Assembly (NCBI RefSeq): GCF_016101585.1
Contig: NZ_JACFQG010000002.1
Span: forward strand, 310,001-374,000
DNA length: 64,000 nt
From: Bifidobacterium polysaccharolyticum
GTDB taxonomy: Bacteria > Actinomycetota > Actinomycetes > Actinomycetales > Bifidobacteriaceae
Reading direction: 5' to 3'
The notes beneath the pieces are model-generated. The model was not told where the DNA came from. It was given only the letters and a program-made list of their open reading frames with translations, and did no database searches. A program made the position numbers and the translations under genes. This document shows, one piece after another, positions 12,198 to 22,122 of this stretch (the stretch's first letter is position 1; each line of letters starts with the position of its first letter).

Positions 12198-13187
12198 TCA
12201 ACCGATGTCTGCGCGCCGGAAGACCAGGGTTCCCAGAGCACAGCATAGGGCTGTCCAGACCATCATGATCAGGCCGGCCTGCCACCAGGTGGGCCACCAT
12301 CCGCGACCTGCTTCTGCAGTCCGGCCCACGCCCGAGAGGAAGGTGACCAGCAGGCTGGTTGGGGTCAGTCTGAAGGGAATCTGCAGCCAGCCGACATGAG
12401 GGGTCAAACCTCGCAGGATGCCCAGAATCAATGGCAGGATCAAGGTCAGTCCAAGAAACAGGCCGATCCCACCGGCCTTGGATCGGCTCAAGGCTCCCAG
12501 GCCTAGACCCATCAAGGCGAAGAGGACCAGCATGAGCGGGCCGCCCAGCAAATCAATCAGGGCCAGACCAGGATTGGAGGCAGGCGAGGTGCCGGATCTG
12601 ACTGATAGAAGCAGGGTCGCCAGTATCCAGCTGAGCAGCAGGCCCACCTGTGCCGCCAGCCAAGTCAGCAAGGCCAGAACAAAGCCCTTGGCCATAAGAA
12701 CCATGCCTCGACGAGGATTGGCCGTCAGCGTGCTCTCAATGGTGGCGCCGGAAAATTCACGCGCAAAGACCAGAACCCCAAGAATGCCCGCCACGATCAT
12801 GGCCGGAAACAGGCCAGCTGCGACGGCCGACCAGAAAACGTCACCGGAGGCAGGCATGAGGCGGGCCGGGTATTGGCTGGTCTGTCGCCCCAGGCCAGCC
12901 AATACCCGGGGCGCACAAGCCATCAGGCCAGTGGTCAACGGCTGCAAGAGCATGACGATCAGCAGCAGAACCCAGGTCGATCGCAGGGAGAACATCTTGC
13001 GCAGCTCCCCTCGGACCGCCCCGGAAAGGGTCAAGTGACCGGATGGCCGATGCAAATCCATCAAGGACAGCCCCGAGGTCCGACGCAACCTGGTAAAGGC
13101 GGAGCCATGCCGTGGAGTTGCGTAATCAAGTCCTGCGGGTACCTCTCGCCGACTCCGACGGGCCCGACGACCGTTGTCAGCACTCAC
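12198..13187 (-). CDS. ABC-2 type transporter permease
   Basis: An integral membrane protein of 329 aa with about six hydrophobic segments (for example STWVLLLIVMLLQPLTTGL, FPAMIVAGILGVLVFA and IGLFLGLTLILPLILGIL) after a basic cytoplasmic N-terminus of about 70 residues. It has the ABC-2 permease layout, including GATIESTLTANPRRG after the second membrane segment. It starts with GTG and overlaps the stop of the ATPase gene by 4 bp (GTGA, 13184-13187), so the two form a pair. Because the partner ATPase has degenerate motifs, transport activity is uncertain. The substrate is unknown. Confidence 0.8.
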   Translation of the reverse strand: MSADNGRRARRSRREVPAGLDYATPRHGSAFTRLRRTSGLSLMDLHRPSGHLTLSGAVRGELRKMFSLRSTWVLLLIVMLLQPLTTGLMACAPRVLAGLGRQTSQYPARLMPASGDVFWSAVAAGLFPAMIVAGILGVLVFAREFSGATIESTLTANPRRGMVLMAKGFVLALLTWLAAQVGLLLSWILATLLLSVRSGTSPASNPGLALIDLLGGPLMLVLFALMGLGLGALSRSKAGGIGLFLGLTLILPLILGILRGLTPHVGWLQIPFRLTPTSLLVTFLSGVGRTAEAGRGWWPTWWQAGLIMMVWTALCCALGTLVFRRADIG

Positions 13188-14131
13188 AGTCTTGCCTCTG
13201 AATCACTCTGCCGCGCGCCCCTTCTCCCATGGATGATGTCCTTGTAAGCCTGTTCCAGGGAAACCTCCTCCTGCTGGAAGTCGTAAAGAACCACACCCTC
13301 CTGGGCCAGAATCGAGGCTGTGGATGCCAAGGGCGCACCCTGGATGCGGAAGCGGGCGGCATCTGGCGGACAGTTCTCGTCTGGCGGCAGACGAGTGATG
13401 CTGATTCCGGCAGCCGTTGCCAGAGCGGCCTTTAATTGGTCGGGCTGCGGCGTCACCGCATAGATGGAGTCACGGGAGTGCTCGCCAATGAACCGGGCCA
13501 CGGTCGTTCTCTCCAGTATCTGCCCCTTGGCGATGATGACCAGATCGTCAGCGATTTCAGCCAACTTGTTTATCTTACGGGAGCTTAGGAGGACTGCCTT
13601 TCCCTGTGAGGCAAGGCTGTGCCAGATGCCCCTCATCCTCTCGGCTCCCTCCGGATCCAGTCCATCAAAGGAATCCTCCAGAACCATGTTGCGTGGGTCG
13701 CCCAGGAGGGCTGCGGCCAGGGCCAGCCGCTGACTCATCCCCAAAGAAAAAGAACCCGTCGATTTATCGGCGACCGATTGCAGGCCAACCATCTCCAGTA
13801 CCTGGTTCACCCGACGCTGATCGATGCCATTGACTGCAGCCAGGGCCAGCAGGTGGTTCCTGGCATTGCATGCAGGATGGGCATTGCGTGGATTCAGTAC
13901 TGCTCCTACTGTCCGCATGGGCGATGAGAGCCGGACGAACGGCTGGCCGTCGAACAGGGCTCTGCCTGAATCAGGACGAACCAGCCCTAGAGCGATGCGC
14001 AGTGTGGTCGACTTGCCAGCGCCTTTAGGCCCCACAAACCCGGTCACCCGACCGTCTCTGGCCGTGAAGGAGACACGGTCCAGTGCTTTGCGGGAGCCGA
14101 AACGCTTGGTCAGTGAGTCGATGACAATCAT
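13184..14131 (-). CDS. ABC transporter ATP-binding protein with degenerate catalytic motifs
   Basis: A nucleotide-binding domain of an ABC-2 type exporter (315 aa) plus about 100 C-terminal residues. The fold is clear, but key positions are altered: Walker A is GPKGAGKST (residues 34-42, usual Asn replaced by Lys), the Q-loop position reads VLNPRN, the signature is SLGMSQ instead of LSGGQ, Walker B reads MVLEDSFDGLDP so the usual Asp-Glu pair is Glu-Asp (residues 152-153), and the switch histidine is Arg185 (LLSSRKINK). The Walker A lysine is kept, so nucleotide binding is possible, but hydrolysis is probably weak or absent. Its start overlaps the SpoU stop (ATGA) and its stop overlaps the permease start. 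Confidence 0.85.
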   Translation of the reverse strand: MIVIDSLTKRFGSRKALDRVSFTARDGRVTGFVGPKGAGKSTTLRIALGLVRPDSGRALFDGQPFVRLSSPMRTVGAVLNPRNAHPACNARNHLLALAAVNGIDQRRVNQVLEMVGLQSVADKSTGSFSLGMSQRLALAAALLGDPRNMVLEDSFDGLDPEGAERMRGIWHSLASQGKAVLLSSRKINKLAEIADDLVIIAKGQILERTTVARFIGEHSRDSIYAVTPQPDQLKAALATAAGISITRLPPDENCPPDAARFRIQGAPLASTASILAQEGVVLYDFQQEEVSLEQAYKDIIHGRRGARQSDSEARL

Positions 14132-15543: not shown

Positions 15544-16896
15544 TCACTGCCCTTGGTCAGGCAAAACTTCCGGCGCGGTCAGCTCCCTGATATTGCCCTT
15601 GTCTGAATCGATCATGTCGACCGAATCGATGACCTTGGAAGGGTCCATCTGCTGCAATTTGCGGGCGGTAACCAGAACCCGCGATTCCAAAGAGGATGCG
15701 AACTTGTTGTAGGCAGTCACCGTGGCAGTGATGGAACGGCCTAGTTTGTTGGCACGATCACCCAGGACCACAAAGCGTTCATAGAGCTCGTGGGTCAACG
15801 TGAATAGGGTGCGAGCGTCCTCGGACAGGTTCTGCTGCTGCCAGGCATAGGCCACCGACTTGAGCACAGCCCAGAGGGTCACCGGCGAGGTCAGAGCCAC
15901 CTTTTGGGCAAAGGCGTCATCCATCAGGGTGGGATCGACCTCCAGAGCGGCCTGCAGAAGGGAATCGTTGGGGATGAAGGCCACCACGAAGTCCGGGGCC
16001 GTCTCGAAGGCGTTCCAGTACTCCTTATCGGCCAGGGCCTTGACGTGCTCGCGCAGAGCACGGGCATGTGCCTTGAGCAGCTCGTCCCGGCGGCGCAACT
16101 CGTCATCCGACGCAGTGTCGGGGATCTCACAGGCCCGCTGATAGTCGGAATAGGGAGCCTTGGCATCAATAGGAATAGTCTTGCCGCCGGGCAGGTGGAC
16201 CACCATATCGGGGCGCAGAACGCGACCATCCGAGGCCGTGACCACAACCTGAGTGTCGAAGTCCACATGCTCCAAGAGCCCTGCAGACTCGACGATATTC
16301 CTGAGCTGAGCCTCTCCCCAGGCGCCGCGCACCTTGTTGTTGCGCAGAGCCGAAGCCAGAGAGCTGGTCTCCTTGTCCAGCCGCCCCTGCTGCTCACCCA
16401 AACTCTTCAGCTGCTGCCCTAAGGACCCCATCTCCTGCTTGCGACCCTCCTCGATTTGGGCCACCTTATGCTGGAGGGCATCCAGATTCTTCTGCACGGG
16501 AGCCAGGGCCGAGAGCACCTTGCTCTCCTCCTCCATGCTCTGAGCCTGCCTGCGCCGCTTCTCCTCCTCCTGAGCCTGTGTACGGCGGCGCTCCTGCTCG
16601 ATTCTGATTTGCTCGGCCTGTTGGGCCTGGGCCAGCTGGGACTTGACAAAGGAGAGCTCACGGTTCAGGCCGTCCACCTTGGTCCGTGCCTCCACTAGAG
16701 CCGCCTCGGATCCGTGAAGCCTGTCCTGAGCCTGGTCCAGCTGCGAACGCAGCTCATCCACCTGGCCGTCAGACCCCGTGCCAACGGCCCTTCGACCCTG
16801 GGCCCGACCCAGCGCATATCCGGCCAATCCTCCCAGGACCATACCGATCAGCAGGAGAAGCACAACCATGACTACCGATGACGTAGAATCGAACAT
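15544..16896 (-). CDS. rmuC: DNA recombination protein RmuC
   Basis: A 450-aa protein with an N-terminal membrane anchor (VVMVVLLLLIGMVLGGLAGY), a long Gln/Glu/Arg-rich coiled coil (residues about 40-165), and the RmuC nuclease-like domain (GAWGEAQLRNIVESAGL, VHLPGGKTIPIDAKAPYSDY, FVVAFIPNDSLLQAALEVDP). RmuC proteins limit inversions and short-repeat recombination and have a PD-(D/E)XK-like core; IPIDAKAPY fits that. The frame is open to 17019, but ATG 16896 gives the normal N-terminal anchor and has GGAGG upstream. It may lead the minus-strand run through the PRTase-like, SpoU and ABC genes. Confidence 0.92.
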   Translation of the reverse strand: MFDSTSSVVMVVLLLLIGMVLGGLAGYALGRAQGRRAVGTGSDGQVDELRSQLDQAQDRLHGSEAALVEARTKVDGLNRELSFVKSQLAQAQQAEQIRIEQERRRTQAQEEEKRRRQAQSMEEESKVLSALAPVQKNLDALQHKVAQIEEGRKQEMGSLGQQLKSLGEQQGRLDKETSSLASALRNNKVRGAWGEAQLRNIVESAGLLEHVDFDTQVVVTASDGRVLRPDMVVHLPGGKTIPIDAKAPYSDYQRACEIPDTASDDELRRRDELLKAHARALREHVKALADKEYWNAFETAPDFVVAFIPNDSLLQAALEVDPTLMDDAFAQKVALTSPVTLWAVLKSVAYAWQQQNLSEDARTLFTLTHELYERFVVLGDRANKLGRSITATVTAYNKFASSLESRVLVTARKLQQMDPSKVIDSVDMIDSDKGNIRELTAPEVLPDQGQ

Positions 16897-17072
16897 ATGT
16901 TCTAGTAAACCTCCACGACTGGACCCGAAAGTCAGATCGGCACGGCAGGCTGTCGGCGATAATTCCAGAATTCGTTTTTTCCGCAAGGAATCGGCCTTAA
17001 GACCAGTGCCGAACCGCAATGACGGGCAGAATAGGAAATATTGAGGGGTTGGAGCAAGACCGAAGGAGATCC

Positions 17073-19148
17073 GTGGGTATCGATATCTTCCTGGCGATAG
17101 CCGATCTGGTCGTGGCCTGTGCGGTCACCTGGCTGATCATCTGGTACTTCCTTATGCCTTCGGCTCATGTCAGCGACCAAGATGCAGGCGCAGACTCCCC
17201 GGCCAACCGCCCCTGGCGCGATCCCGAGGATTGGGGCAAATGGGGGGCCGATCTGGACTCTCGCAGCCACCGTCTGCTCAGGCCTACCATCATTAGCGCC
17301 CTGCTGACCGCACCAGTTTTGGTTCTGGATCTGTTTGATCGCTTCGGCCCCGAACTGATTCCCTCCTGGCTGACCAGCCCCTGGGTCCAGGCCATTCTGA
17401 TAACCCCAGTCATCTTCTATTGCGGCCGTGGAATACTCATGGACGGGTGGAAGTCCATGACCGAGCACCGCTGCAGCCCCGATCTTTTGGCCATGCTGGC
17501 CACAAGCCTGGCCTACCTGTACAGCCTGGCCACCTGCCTGGCCGGGTCCCTGCTGCCGGAGGGCTCCCGATCCCCATACTTCGATCTGATCGGCGTAGTC
17601 ATCACCCTCCTATTGCTGGCCCGGGTCATCGGCACCAGAATGGAAGCCTCCCTGGTGGCCTCTTTGAACCATCTGACAGAAATCCGACCAGCCTCAGGCC
17701 TGGTGGCTGATCCCAAGCATCCGCAGACAGTCCCCGCCCAGATTCTTGCACGTGACCGGATTCGCCCAGGCGATTTGCTCCTGGTGCGCACAGGAGAGCG
17801 CCCAGCCGCGGACGGGGTTGTGGAGTCAGGGTCGGCCCTGGTGGACGACAGCGAGCTGACCGGCGGCGACCGACCCCGGCCTTGCGGACCCGGCGACCGG
17901 ATCCTGGCCTCCAGCAAGATTCTAGAGGGTCGACTGTCCATCCGCGTGGATGCCGCCGGCGACAACACCTATGCAGCCAGACTCGTGAAGATCATCCCTC
18001 AGGCCCTGGTCGAACGCTCCCCCGCCATGCGCAGAATGGATCGGATTGTCAACACAGCCATCGCCCTGATCATGATCCTGGCTGTCTGGACCTTCATGCT
18101 CTGGCTCATGCTGGGACCGCAACCCCACTTGGCCCACGCTGTAGGCAATGCGGTCTGCGTACTGACCATCGCCTGTCCCGCTGTCGCAGCCATGACCATC
18201 CCCATGGCCTTCCGAACCAGCTTGGAGACCGGCCTGGCCCATGGTCTGCTCTTCACTTCGCCAAGAGCCATGAACCACCTGGGCCGCGTGCGCACGCTGA
18301 TTCTGGACGACTCCTCTCTGCTGGATCCCGACGACTCGGAGAGCCAGGGTGTCCACGCGGAATCCCTGACCCGTACCGCCACCCATCTACGCTCCTTGCG
18401 AGTGAGTAGCCTGATCCTGGATGGAAGCCGCCAGCCGGATGACAGGATTGAGCGGGCGGCCCGTCAGGCGGGCGTGGATATGCTGATCACGCGACTGACC
18501 CCCGAACGCAAGCGCGAATGTATGGATCGTCTCATCCACGACCTGACCCGGACCAGCAGAGGCGTTCCAGCGGATCGGACTGGTCAAGGCACCGCATCCG
18601 CCGGGGAGCAGGGCCGAACCAGCCTGGTGGCTCTGGCAGCTGGGACCACAGCGGATCCCAAGCTGGCGGCCAGAGCTCATGTGAGCATCACTTTGGGTCC
18701 AAAACTTCAGGCTGACACAGACGATGCCACGGACGACATTGACCTGCCGCACCCGGATCTGATCCTGCACCAAGGCGACCTTGATGGGACAGGCAGGGCC
18801 ATTGAACTGAGCCGGGCCACCACCCAGGTCATCAGGCAGAACCTAACCTGGTCCACTGTCTACAACGTCATCGCCCTGGCCATTGCCACCGGAATCTGCC
18901 AACCCTTCTTGGGCTGGATGCTCAACCCCATGATTGCAGCAGTAACAGGGGCCCTGTCCACCATCCTTGCCATGCTCAATGTTCGTCGCCTGCATCGGCT
19001 CCGGCACCTGCGCCGTCGCTGGCTGCACCTCGCCCTGATCGACACAGACCAGCTACCGACTGTAGCGGCACGACGCCCCCAAGTCATCGTCGACAGCCAG
19101 TGGGAGTCCATGCAAGAGGGCAAGGATCCGGCGGCCGCTATGGACTGA
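17073..19148 (+). CDS. Catalytically dead P-type ATPase homologue (pseudo-CopA-like)
   Basis: A 691-aa membrane protein with the membrane layout of a heavy-metal P1B ATPase, including SPDLLAMLATSLAYLYS and the actuator region GDLLLVRTGERPAADGVVESG. All signature residues differ. Actuator TGE is TGG (263-265), the intramembrane CPC is CPA (368-370), and phosphorylation motif DKTGT is DDSSL (D412). The nucleotide-binding domain is almost entirely missing, the usual TGD reads DGS, and GDGxNDxP reads AAGTTADP (522-529). The frame is open throughout. I chose GTG 17073 because AAGGAGAT ends 2 nt before it; ATG 17019 is also open but has no such signal. It is divergent from rmuC and convergent with clpB. 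ATP-driven transport is not expected; a sensor, chaperone or regulatory role is speculation. Confidence 0.8.
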   Translation: MGIDIFLAIADLVVACAVTWLIIWYFLMPSAHVSDQDAGADSPANRPWRDPEDWGKWGADLDSRSHRLLRPTIISALLTAPVLVLDLFDRFGPELIPSWLTSPWVQAILITPVIFYCGRGILMDGWKSMTEHRCSPDLLAMLATSLAYLYSLATCLAGSLLPEGSRSPYFDLIGVVITLLLLARVIGTRMEASLVASLNHLTEIRPASGLVADPKHPQTVPAQILARDRIRPGDLLLVRTGERPAADGVVESGSALVDDSELTGGDRPRPCGPGDRILASSKILEGRLSIRVDAAGDNTYAARLVKIIPQALVERSPAMRRMDRIVNTAIALIMILAVWTFMLWLMLGPQPHLAHAVGNAVCVLTIACPAVAAMTIPMAFRTSLETGLAHGLLFTSPRAMNHLGRVRTLILDDSSLLDPDDSESQGVHAESLTRTATHLRSLRVSSLILDGSRQPDDRIERAARQAGVDMLITRLTPERKRECMDRLIHDLTRTSRGVPADRTGQGTASAGEQGRTSLVALAAGTTADPKLAARAHVSITLGPKLQADTDDATDDIDLPHPDLILHQGDLDGTGRAIELSRATTQVIRQNLTWSTVYNVIALAIATGICQPFLGWMLNPMIAAVTGALSTILAMLNVRRLHRLRHLRRRWLHLALIDTDQLPTVAARRPQVIVDSQWESMQEGKDPAAAMD

Positions 19149-19223: not shown

Positions 19224-22013
19224 TCAGTGAGACTGGGCCTGACCCTGATCGTCGCCACGAGCGGCATGACGGCCACGACCACCGTCGCGTCCGCCATCGC
19301 CGGCATCAGCATCAGCATCGGCATCGCCATCAGCCGTCACATCGTCGACTGTGACTGAGTCATCGACCAGATTTTCAGTGGGCCAAGCGGTCAGCTCCAG
19401 GTGGTCGCCGCCGGTCTGATCCACCAGGACTGTGTCGCCGTCGTGAACCTTGCCAGCCAGCAACATCCTGGCCAGCTGATCGCCCACCTCGGTCTGGACC
19501 AGCCGACGCAAAGGCCGAGCGCCGAAGGCCGGGTCATAGCCCATGTTGGCCAGCCACTCCCGAGCGGAGTCGGTGACATCAAGGGTGATGCGCCGGTCGG
19601 TCAGCCGCTGGGCCACCTGCTTGACCTGGATGTCCACAATAGAACCCAGCTCGTCGCGGGTCAGCGGGTGGAAGATGACCAGATCGTCCAGCCGGTTGAT
19701 GAACTCAGGCTTGAAGTTGGCATGCACCGCATCCATAACGGCCTTGCGCTTGCCATCCTCGTCCAGGTCGTCCCGGACCAGGAACTGCGAGCCCAGGTTG
19801 GAGGTCATGATCAGAATGGTGTTCTTGAAGTCCACCGTCCTGCCCTGGCCATCGGTCAGCCGACCGTCATCCAGAACCTGCAGGAGCAGGTCGAAGACCT
19901 CAGGGTTGGCCTTCTCCACTTCGTCGAAGAGGACCACCGAGTAGGGCCGCCGACGTATGGCCTCGGTCAGCTGGCCACCCTCCTCATAGCCCACATAGCC
20001 GGGGGCAGCACCAATCAGACGCGAGACCGAGGCCTTCTCCATGTACTCTGACATGTCGATGCGGACCATGGCCTTCTCGTCGTCGAAGAGGAAGTCAGCC
20101 AAAGCCTTGGCCAGCTCCGTCTTGCCCACGCCGGTGGGGCCCAGGAACATGAAGGATCCTGTAGGCCGATCGGGATCGGCGATGCCGGCACGCGAGCGCC
20201 GGACCGCGTCGGATACCGCATGGATGGCCTCCTGCTGGCCGACCACCCGCTTGCCCAGGTAGTCCTCCATATGCAGGAGCTTCTCGTTCTCGCCCTCCAT
20301 GAGCCGTCCCACAGGGATACCGGTCCAGTCCGAAACGATCTCCGCTACGGAATCCGCATCAACATGGTCAGGAACCATGGGCTCCTGGGCCGGTCCCCCG
20401 GCGATGTCAGCCCCATCGGGACCAGCGTCATTGGAGGCGTTCTTGGCCTGCTCGGCCGCGTTCTCCGCCTGGGCCAGCTGCTTACGAATGCCGGGGATCT
20501 CCCCGTAGAGGATGCGGGAAGCCTTCTCCAGGTCGCCCTCGCGGGTGGCCTTGTCAGCCTCGACCCGCTTGGCATCCAGCTGGGCACGCAGATCGCCGAC
20601 CTTGTTGTGGCCGGCCTTCTCGTTCTCCCAACGAGCCTTGAGGCCGCCCAGCTTCTCGCGAGAGTCCGCCAGCTCGGCCTGCAGCTTGCTCAGACGGTCC
20701 TTGGAGGCTGGGTCATCGGCCTTCTTCAGCTGCATCTCCTCCATCTCCAGACGGGTGACGCGACGTTGAAGCTCGTCGATTTCCTCAGGCTGGGAATCCA
20801 GCTCCATCCTCAGGTGGGCAGCGGCCTCGTCAACCAGGTCGATGGCCTTGTCTGGCAGCTGACGACCCGAGATATACCGGTTGGACAACGTAGCTGCCGC
20901 CACCAGGGCATCATCCCCGATGGTCACCTTGTGGTGAGCCTCGTAACGCTGCTTGAGACCACGCAGGATGGCCACGGTATCCTCCACGGAGGGCTCGCCC
21001 ACGAAGACCTGCTGGAAGCGGCGCTCCAGAGCCGGGTCCTTCTCGATGTTCTCACGGTACTCGTCCAGGGTGGTGGCGCCGATCAGGCGCAGTTCTCCCC
21101 TGGCCAGCATGGGCTTGAGCATGTTGCCTGCATCCATGGATCCCTCTGCGGCACCCGCACCGACAATGGTATGGATCTCATCAATGAAGGTGATGACCTG
21201 ACCGTTGGCGCTCTTGATCTCGTTGAGAACAGCCTTGAGTCGTTCCTCGAATTCGCCACGGTACTTGCTGCCAGCCACCATGGAGCTCAGATCCAGGGAG
21301 ATCAGCCTCTTGCCCTGCAGGGTGGTAGGCACGTCGCCGGCTACGATGCGTTCGGCCAGGCCTTCGACCACGGCTGTCTTACCCACGCCAGGCTCGCCGA
21401 TAAGGACGGGGTTGTTCTTGGTCCGCCGGGACAGGATCTGCATGACACGACGAATCTCCTGATCCCTGCCGATGACCGGGTCCAGCTTGCCCTCCTTGGC
21501 CTGGGCGGTCAGATCGGTGGAGTACTTCTCCAGAGCCTTGTAAGTGCCCTCGGCATCCGGGCTGGTCACCTTGGCACCGCCGCGCACCTGGGGCACGGCC
21601 TTACGCAGGGTATCGGCCTGCAGACCGTTCCGGTTCAGAATATCAGCAGCCTGCGAAGGACCCTGGGCGATGGCGATAAGCAAATGCTCGGTGGACACGT
21701 ATTCGTCCCCCATGGCCTGCATTTCCTTCTCTGCCTGAGCCAAGGCCATGCTGAGCTGACGGCTGGCATCGGGCTGCGATGCCGTGGATCCGCTGGCCGA
21801 CGGCAGAGCCACCAGGGCCTGACGGACCTCGGCTCCGACCCGTTGGCTGTCACCACCAGCGGCTTGAATCAGTCCAGGCACCACTCCGGACTGCTGACGC
21901 AGCAGGGAGTCCAACAGATGGAGCACATCCACCTGGGGGTTGCCAGCCGCCGAGGCCGACTGGATAGCATCGCCTATGGCCTGCTGAGCCATGGTGGTGA
22001 AGTTTTCGTTCAT
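19224..22013 (-). CDS. clpB: ATP-dependent chaperone ClpB
   Basis: Hexameric AAA+ disaggregase that works with DnaK (929 aa from ATG 22013, preceded by GGAGG). The order is a double Clp N-domain repeat, AAA-1 with Walker [17 protein letters not shown], the coiled-coil middle domain (residues about 390-530), AAA-2 with [15 protein letters not shown], and the C-terminal D2 small domain. After it comes a non-conserved tail of about 40 residues with an Asp-Ala repeat ([14 protein letters not shown]) and a basic Gly/Arg/His end, making it longer than usual (about 860). A HAIR operator lies 110 bp upstream, so heat-shock control by HspR is likely. Confidence 0.97.
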
Positions 22014-22122
22014 AGAGCATCCTCCAACATTCTTCGGCGGGGCCAGCCGAATCATTCGACCAGACCCCGTCACGGGTTCATCTGCCTTCTACAACAGCGA
22101 AAGGAGGATGCCTATTCCCAAA

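Follow-up and report, generated by a model that had tools for sequence, protein, structure and literature searches.

A conserved, stepwise reduced pseudo-pump of copper P1B-type ATPase descent in the Bifidobacteriaceae

Results

The locus and the predicted fold of its product

The window, the whole 64,000-nucleotide stretch of DNA that was analysed, covers positions 310001-374000 of contig C7 in a 2.23 Mb genome. Among named organisms, this genome has Bifidobacterium asteroides, B. mellis, B. choladohabitans, B. mizhiense and B. apousia as near relatives. The Bifidobacterium family is common in bee and human guts. The gene of interest occupies positions 17073-19148 of the forward strand and is an uninterrupted frame of 691 codons closed by a stop. 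A Shine-Dalgarno-like AAGGAG (17063-17068, forward strand) lies four bases 5' of its GTG start at 17073, and a purine-rich site is found 5' of the homologous start (GTG, ATG or TTG) in all 17 genus loci inspected. Two genes mark the slot: a divergent rmuC (15544-16896, reverse strand; the listed frame runs to 17019 from a TTG, and the ATG at 16896 is our choice of start) and a convergent clpB (19224-22073, reverse strand).

The frame, Pfam, NCBIfam and a homologue search identify the gene as that of a dead P1B-type pump. The sole Pfam domain is E1-E2_ATPase (PF00122, 107 bits), and the score against the NCBIfam copper ATPase family TIGR01511 is 203 bits, under the cut-off of 397, with the best stretch at residues 118-413. 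An AlphaFold2 model from 23 genus sequences is of middling confidence (mean pLDDT 71.9, pTM 0.68); we read its secondary structure as an extra N-terminal helix, helices MA to M6, the β part of an actuator domain and a remnant of the phosphorylation (P) domain. The best PDB matches in a Foldseek search are CopA structures (LpCopA 4bbj, E 4e-28; AfCopA 7r0g, TM 0.66-0.70). Pfam, Foldseek and AlphaFold2 agree that the protein is a P1B ATPase by descent and by fold (MA/MB plus M1-M6, actuator and P folds). The first-pass annotation, which had described a 691-codon frame with the architecture of a P1B metal pump and had proposed the comparison with CopA, is borne out on this point by the frame, Pfam, TIGR01511 and the model.

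The protein begins with an extra helix that has a conserved G-[IFV]-D-I-F start (residues 2-27; 17076-17153, forward strand, as are all features below). The membrane helices MA, MB, M1 and M2 follow (residues 63-206; 17259-17690), then an actuator-domain remnant (residues 207-325; 17691-18047), helices M3-M4 with their link (residues 326-411; 18048-18305), a P-domain remnant from which the nucleotide-binding (N) domain is missing (about residues 406-568; 18288-18776) and helices M5-M6 (residues 571-641; 18783-18995). With the CopA-type P1B-1 ATPases (LpCopA, 3rfu and 4bbj; AfCopA, 7r0g; TIGR01511) the protein shares the fold, the order MA/MB plus M1-M6 and, in the model, the actuator and phosphorylation-domain folds, but it lacks the N domain, DKTGT, the actuator Glu, GDGxND and a full CPC. 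The same genome encodes a full-length CopA (contig C10, matches within 85454-87493), a distant paralogue with 32% identity over query residues 64-418. This CopA also begins with an N-terminal helix but, unlike the window protein, it has a cupredoxin-like and a YHS-like end and all motifs, and its N domain is complete, with 166 residues separating DKTGT and TGD.

Catalytic and metal-path motifs

Five motifs of the pump are altered in the window protein, each as the first-pass annotation had stated and as sequence and alignment confirm: the actuator TGE is TGG (T263, residues 263-265; 17859-17867), CPC is CPA (C368, residues 368-370; 18174-18182), DKTGT is DDSSL with the Asp, D412, kept (residues 412-416; 18306-18320), TGD/SGD is DGS (D450, residues 450-452; 18420-18428) and GDGxNDxP is AAGTTADP (A522, residues 522-529; 18636-18659). 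None of the hallmarks of an active P-type ATPase (DKTGT, the actuator TGE, the GDGxNDxP Mg site) is present. Of the P1B-1 copper pump signature (CPC in M4, Y-N in M5, M and S in M6) YN is kept, CPC has become CPA and the M6 Met is Gly. There is no N domain with an HP motif, and 33 residues separate the DKTGT and TGD places.

The same losses run through the genus. Counts refer to 26 aligned members; the 27th, from genome G016, is split in two frames and was left out. The aligned members fall into clades A (13 genomes, including the window's), B (3), C (5), D (2) and E (3). DKTGT and GDGxNDxP are each intact in 0/26, and the actuator Glu is found in one of the 21 members that still possess the domain. 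Neither frame of the split member has DKTGT or GDGxNDxP; in the second, DQSAI stands where DKTGT would be. Judged from sequence and by established P-type chemistry, the window protein is unable to run a pump cycle, since the N domain, the DKTGT loop, an intact GDGxND and (in nearly all members) the actuator Glu are missing.

The metal path has fared unevenly. The M5 Asn is retained in 26/26 dead members, the second CPC Cys in 5/26, and the copper entry Met is gone in 25/26. None of the 21 members of clades A, B and C retains a second CPC Cys, an M1 entry Met or an M6 Met, and three of them have Ser for the first CPC Cys. In clades D and E, where DKTGT is also gone, CPC and the M6 Met persist (5/5).

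The earlier statement that every catalytic motif is lost is correct for the motifs and too strong for single residues: the nucleophile position (D412) is Asp, and the HAD motif III Lys (K480; 18510-18512) is kept, in 24/26 members each. These two residues might be taken to form a repurposed phosphatase-like site that does HAD chemistry or binds a phosphorylated ligand. Against this, in a loosely aligned stretch the first Asp of GDGxND is present in 7/26, the second in 16/26 and both only in the three members of clade E, two of which have Glu as the nucleophile. No dead member keeps the complete HAD set (nucleophile Asp, Lys, GDGxND Asp) in its motif context, and we regard this reading as very improbable indeed.

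Conservation and selection across the genus

A homologue is present in 27/27 genomes of the genus (the Bifidobacterium asteroides group and relatives), flanked by rmuC and clpB in 18/18 loci and then in the remaining 9/9. The frame is open in 26 of the 27. In the exception, G016 (L061, 5714-7562), a frameshift in the M2-to-actuator linker yields frames of 231 and 450 codons, either by sequencing error or as a real break. A TAG at residue 660 of the G006 copy is the gene's own stop. In clade C the entire actuator domain is deleted in 5/5 members, with open frames. The N-terminal G-x-D-I-F does not vary among 23 genus sequences, whose identities go as low as 30%.

The 13 clade A genomes give a dN/dS of 0.126 (Nei-Gojobori; bootstrap 0.104-0.146, 60 replicates). 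By part, the values are 0.084 for the A domain, 0.086 for MA-M2, 0.074 for M3-M4, 0.168 for the P remnant, 0.149 for M5-M6, 0.081 for the C-tail and 0.170 for the linker; the five parts that were bootstrapped lie at 0.07-0.17. The P remnant is thus under looser constraint than most of the membrane part, yet far from neutral, in the comparison of membrane segments and P domain that the first-pass annotation had proposed. Variable nucleotide sites number 156, 101 and 457 at the three codon positions; with 457/714 at third positions, the frame is conserved beyond chance. In a four-genome comparison the gene has a dN/dS of 0.141 and its six neighbours 0.035, 0.048, 0.063, 0.106, 0.161 and 0.206. 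Pairwise values within clades B, C and E are 0.08-0.30 for pairs with unsaturated dS; 4/10 pairs in clade C and the single D pair yielded no ratio. The gene is kept open under purifying selection.

A recent pseudogene can be rejected on these grounds (homologues in every genome, the low dN/dS of clade A, one broken frame), and so can a loss limited to the window's strain, as DKTGT and GDGxNDxP are absent across the genus. The claim that selection rather than chance has preserved the frame therefore stands; the contrary case, an eroded copy among intact relatives with a dN/dS near 1, is excluded.

Two side observations concern the same DNA. The N-terminal helix has a dN/dS of 0.348 at a low dS of 0.14 in clade A, and residues 1-40 (17073-17192) show this dS of 0.14 against 0.36 overall, as if the DNA at the gene start were also constrained, for example by a regulatory or translation signal. 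A nearby ABC ATPase gene (13184-14131, reverse strand) reads VLEDSFDGLDP where 12/12 loci inspected from other clades or genera have [LF]DEPxNGLDP, so that the Walker B Asp and the catalytic Glu look swapped. Three other clade A loci have VLDDPLEGLDP, VLDELLDGLAS and VLDEPLKGLDS at the same place, so erosion in the window's clade extends to this second ATPase motif.

Orthologues with intact motifs and no N domain

A P-domain profile lacking the N domain (A3) was searched against 162 family genomes from outside the genus. It matched contiguously in 53 genomes at E<=7e-64 and with a long insert in three more, giving 56/162. These 56 orthologues have intact TGE, CPC, DKTGT and GDGxND (56/56) and no HP pattern (0/56), and their DKTGT-to-SGD spacing is 43-64 residues, against 150-166 in the four CopA sequences measured. 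In an alignment of 26 dead, 56 N-domain-less (N-less) and 15 full CopA sequences, the entry Met, M2 Glu, M3 Asp, CPC, M5 Tyr-Asn, M6 Met and Ser and the motif III Lys are each present in 56/56 N-less sequences. One N-less orthologue scores 507 bits against TIGR01511, over the cut-off; its kind was modelled poorly by AlphaFold2 in the one case run (pLDDT 58.9, pTM 0.41).

The N-less orthologues share with the window protein the rmuC slot, the Cys residues of MB and M1 described below, the missing N domain and a C-terminal P-x-[VI]-I-x-D segment. They differ from it in their tested catalytic and transport residues, all of which are intact, and in having cupredoxin and YHS domains (found by Pfam in one orthologue, and by pattern in 54 and 55 of 56, respectively). 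At 24 of the 27 loci checked among the 56, rmuC lies beside the gene, with clpB too in 14 of these; the other three have neither in the stretch read.

Two N-less sequences (L211 and L212, from G070 and G081) carry long repetitive inserts before GDGIND and every motif tested. In L070, L039 and L034, the three inspected, an in-frame ATG with AAGGAG upstream stands just before the C-terminal YHS domain, which may also be made as a separate small protein.

The first-pass annotation was right that the nucleotide-binding domain is gone, but counted this as part of the decay. We reject that reading: 56 orthologues with intact motifs also lack the domain, which argues that the N domain was lost first and catalysis later. 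In a tree of these sequences, CopA forms one clade (100/100), the dead forms another (82/72) and the N-less forms two groups; long branches meet in this tree, which has no outside root, and it does not itself fix which event came first. One loss of the N domain is enough if the tree is rooted on the CopA branch. As the dead forms are one clade, the loss of catalysis in the genus may have been a single event.

N-less pumps are not a widespread known kind by the samples searched. An order-wide sample of 297 genomes gave four matches at E<=1e-35, all in this family. In a phylum sample of 396 genomes, with at most ten candidates per genome scored, the matches listed all start at profile position 9 or later; the best listed has E 3.8e-40, against E<=7e-64 for the 53 contiguous hits in the family. 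We read thirteen of these genomes, including the three that start earliest among the matches listed; the spacing from DKTGT to xGD is 123-173 residues in 13/13, indicating that the N domain is present there.

How could such a pump be phosphorylated? Large amounts of acetyl phosphate arise in bifidobacteria from the phosphoketolase shunt, their main sugar pathway. For the SR Ca2+-ATPase, the available part of PMC7961605 reports that acetyl phosphate drives Ca2+ transport like ATP; the part available of PMC12842023 holds nothing helpful on acetyl phosphate and ATPases. By analogy, the N-less pumps are perhaps phosphorylated by a donor other than N-domain-bound ATP, perhaps acetyl phosphate. The window gene would then derive, by retirement, from a pump able to work before then with no N domain; in genomes that also have a normal CopA, the copy would have been pared back to a conserved membrane protein that serves another function. 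As a whole, this extended scenario strikes us as unlikely, though worth stating.

Reduced forms and the full-length pump

A family-wide search with seven of the reduced proteins as queries, followed by inspection of frames, found reduced forms of the slot gene in 40 genomes. In a neighbouring genus the slot carries a smaller, mostly membrane-only protein, and the reduced forms as read are 281-515 residues long. Slot markers lie beside all 40: both in 30, clpB only in nine and rmuC only in one. DKTGT and GDGxND are found in 0/40 and CPC in 4/40. Most, as read, consist of the N-terminal helix, MA, MB, M1, M2, a linker, M3 and part of M4. They match the MA-M2 part of the window protein, and this bundle is common to the dead, N-less and reduced states.

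Among them, a group of seven has a dN/dS of 0.14-0.38 and a group of five one of 0.29-0.50; two groups of three have 0.31-0.45 and 0.23-0.26, and two pairs 0.16 and 0.29. The reduced forms are under purifying selection, weaker in places. No internal stop occurs in the 40 rows, which were chosen partly by their open frame.

Across the family, the form of the slot gene correlates with whether the genome also encodes a full-length pump. One N-domain profile and one threshold were used for all genomes (A4, E<=0.001; a P1B ATPase whose N domain differs strongly could escape it). A P1B N domain was found in 27/27 dead-form genomes, 39/40 reduced-form genomes and 10/56 N-less genomes; that is, in 66 of the 67 genomes with a dead or reduced copy, and not in 46 of the 56 with an N-less pump. 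These counts are per genome rather than per independent event, and the genomes are not independent. Another search, with a different query and E<=1e-30, gave the same picture for the 27 and, as we read it, for the 39. In each of the ten N-less genomes the N domain lies in a frame of 639-867 codons, and G088 has others of 644-704. A CopA-like N domain encoded elsewhere can be dismissed as a general feature of N-less genomes, ten of 56 being the extent of it by this profile.

Two slots stand apart. The one reduced-form genome in which no P1B N domain was found, G068, has a reduced slot protein with CPC (L233, 3752-4879). In G045 (L219, 3775-6873) the gene directly next to rmuC is that of a full-length CopA with its N domain, which shows that a complete pump can occupy the slot as well.

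Two Cys residues mark the slot proteins. C117 in MB (FYCG; 17421-17423) is present in 24/26 dead, 51/56 N-less and 29/40 reduced forms, and C155 in M1 (YSLxxC; 17535-17537) in 26/26, 52/56 and 36/40; both are found in 0/15 CopA. They are the best candidates for a chemical function common to the three forms.

These residues bear on one of the roles proposed in the first-pass annotation, a membrane metal sensor (or a buffer), which would bind and signal metal without pumping. A sensor built on the pump's own metal path is weakened by the complete losses in clades A-C, clades D and E being the ones that keep CPC and the M6 Met. The MB and M1 Cys, kept in most forms, suggest a possible metal site other than that path, and this part of the proposal survives. 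The MB place is Ser or Gly in 11/40 reduced forms, though, and no regulator gene is found among the six neighbours compared. We consider a sensor or buffer improbable.

The reduced forms also bear on residual passive transport, with the membrane domain as an uncoupled channel or facilitator. M1-M6 are predicted to be complete in the window protein, and the M5 Asn is invariant in the dead forms. An M5-M6 signature is present in just 10/40 reduced orthologues, so the full path is not a common feature, and the metal-path residues are gone in clades A-C. Passive transport is accordingly a quite improbable role.

Discussion

We have shown that the window's gene belongs to a group of orthologues anchored at one locus (rmuC-X-clpB), which descends from copper-type P1B-ATPases and is found in the Bifidobacteriaceae. 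The best explanation of its descent, dead catalysis and purifying selection taken together is that it encodes a retired pump kept for its membrane module, a reading to which we give a probability of roughly 55%. The ancestor at the locus was probably an otherwise complete pump without an N domain. With a full-length CopA serving the cell, the slot copy would likely have been freed from pumping; it would then have lost catalysis and, in some clades, the actuator domain too, and would have been retained for something that its membrane module (the N-terminal helix and MA to M4) does.

Slow, frame-preserving decay is the main competitor: CopA would have rendered the gene redundant and set it on a course to loss, and the membrane part would stay constrained merely to avoid toxic misfolding. 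A graded series can be laid out that fits it, from catalytic N-less pumps through dead forms of 617-700 residues and reduced forms to slots with no homologue beside rmuC (2/9 slots read; G097 and G144). The weaker selection in some reduced forms (dN/dS up to 0.50 in one group) and the G016 frameshift also fit slow decay. Against it stand the open frame in all dead forms save that one, the absence of internal stops in the reduced rows (with the selection of rows noted above), the low dN/dS that all five bootstrapped parts have in clade A, and the invariance of segments such as the N-terminal G-x-D-I-F among divergent sequences. We think decay unlikely, if not negligibly so.

If the retired pump is indeed kept for its membrane module, what might the module do? 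In AfCopA, according to the part of PMC9433437 that is available, MA-M2 and M3-M6 move against each other as two bundles, and an MB' platform between MB and M1 is the proposed docking place of CopZ. An MA-M2 bundle could dock, hold or stabilise a partner without itself moving metal. Our best guess, a tentative one that we would not bet on at even odds, is that the module acts with CopA or in copper delivery as a partner that does not pump. The full-length P1B ATPase in 27/27 dead-form genomes makes the partner reading compatible with the data, as co-occurrence only. The loss of the entry Met in 25 of the 26 dead members argues against a simple hand-over of copper from a chaperone to the pump. 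Taken as a whole, the earlier interpretation is partly supported.

Pseudoenzymes that keep a fold, lose catalysis and are conserved, such as inactive rhomboids or pseudokinases, are well known. A literature search in which subscription journals were mostly outside reach found no P-type ATPase pseudoenzyme and none without an N domain or DKTGT; in the parts available, PMC6244367 and PMC12110750, on Bifidobacterium and P-type ATPases, merely mention annotated genes.

The lineage is a conserved, stepwise reduced pseudo-pump. If our reading is true, a P-type ATPase fold can be selected for a job unrelated to pumping, and a single locus shows the steps: chemistry that is complete though the N domain is missing, then loss of catalysis and of the actuator domain, and a membrane-only remnant. 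This raises two testable questions: what use is made of a pump's membrane shell alone, and whether a P-type pump can run without an N domain.
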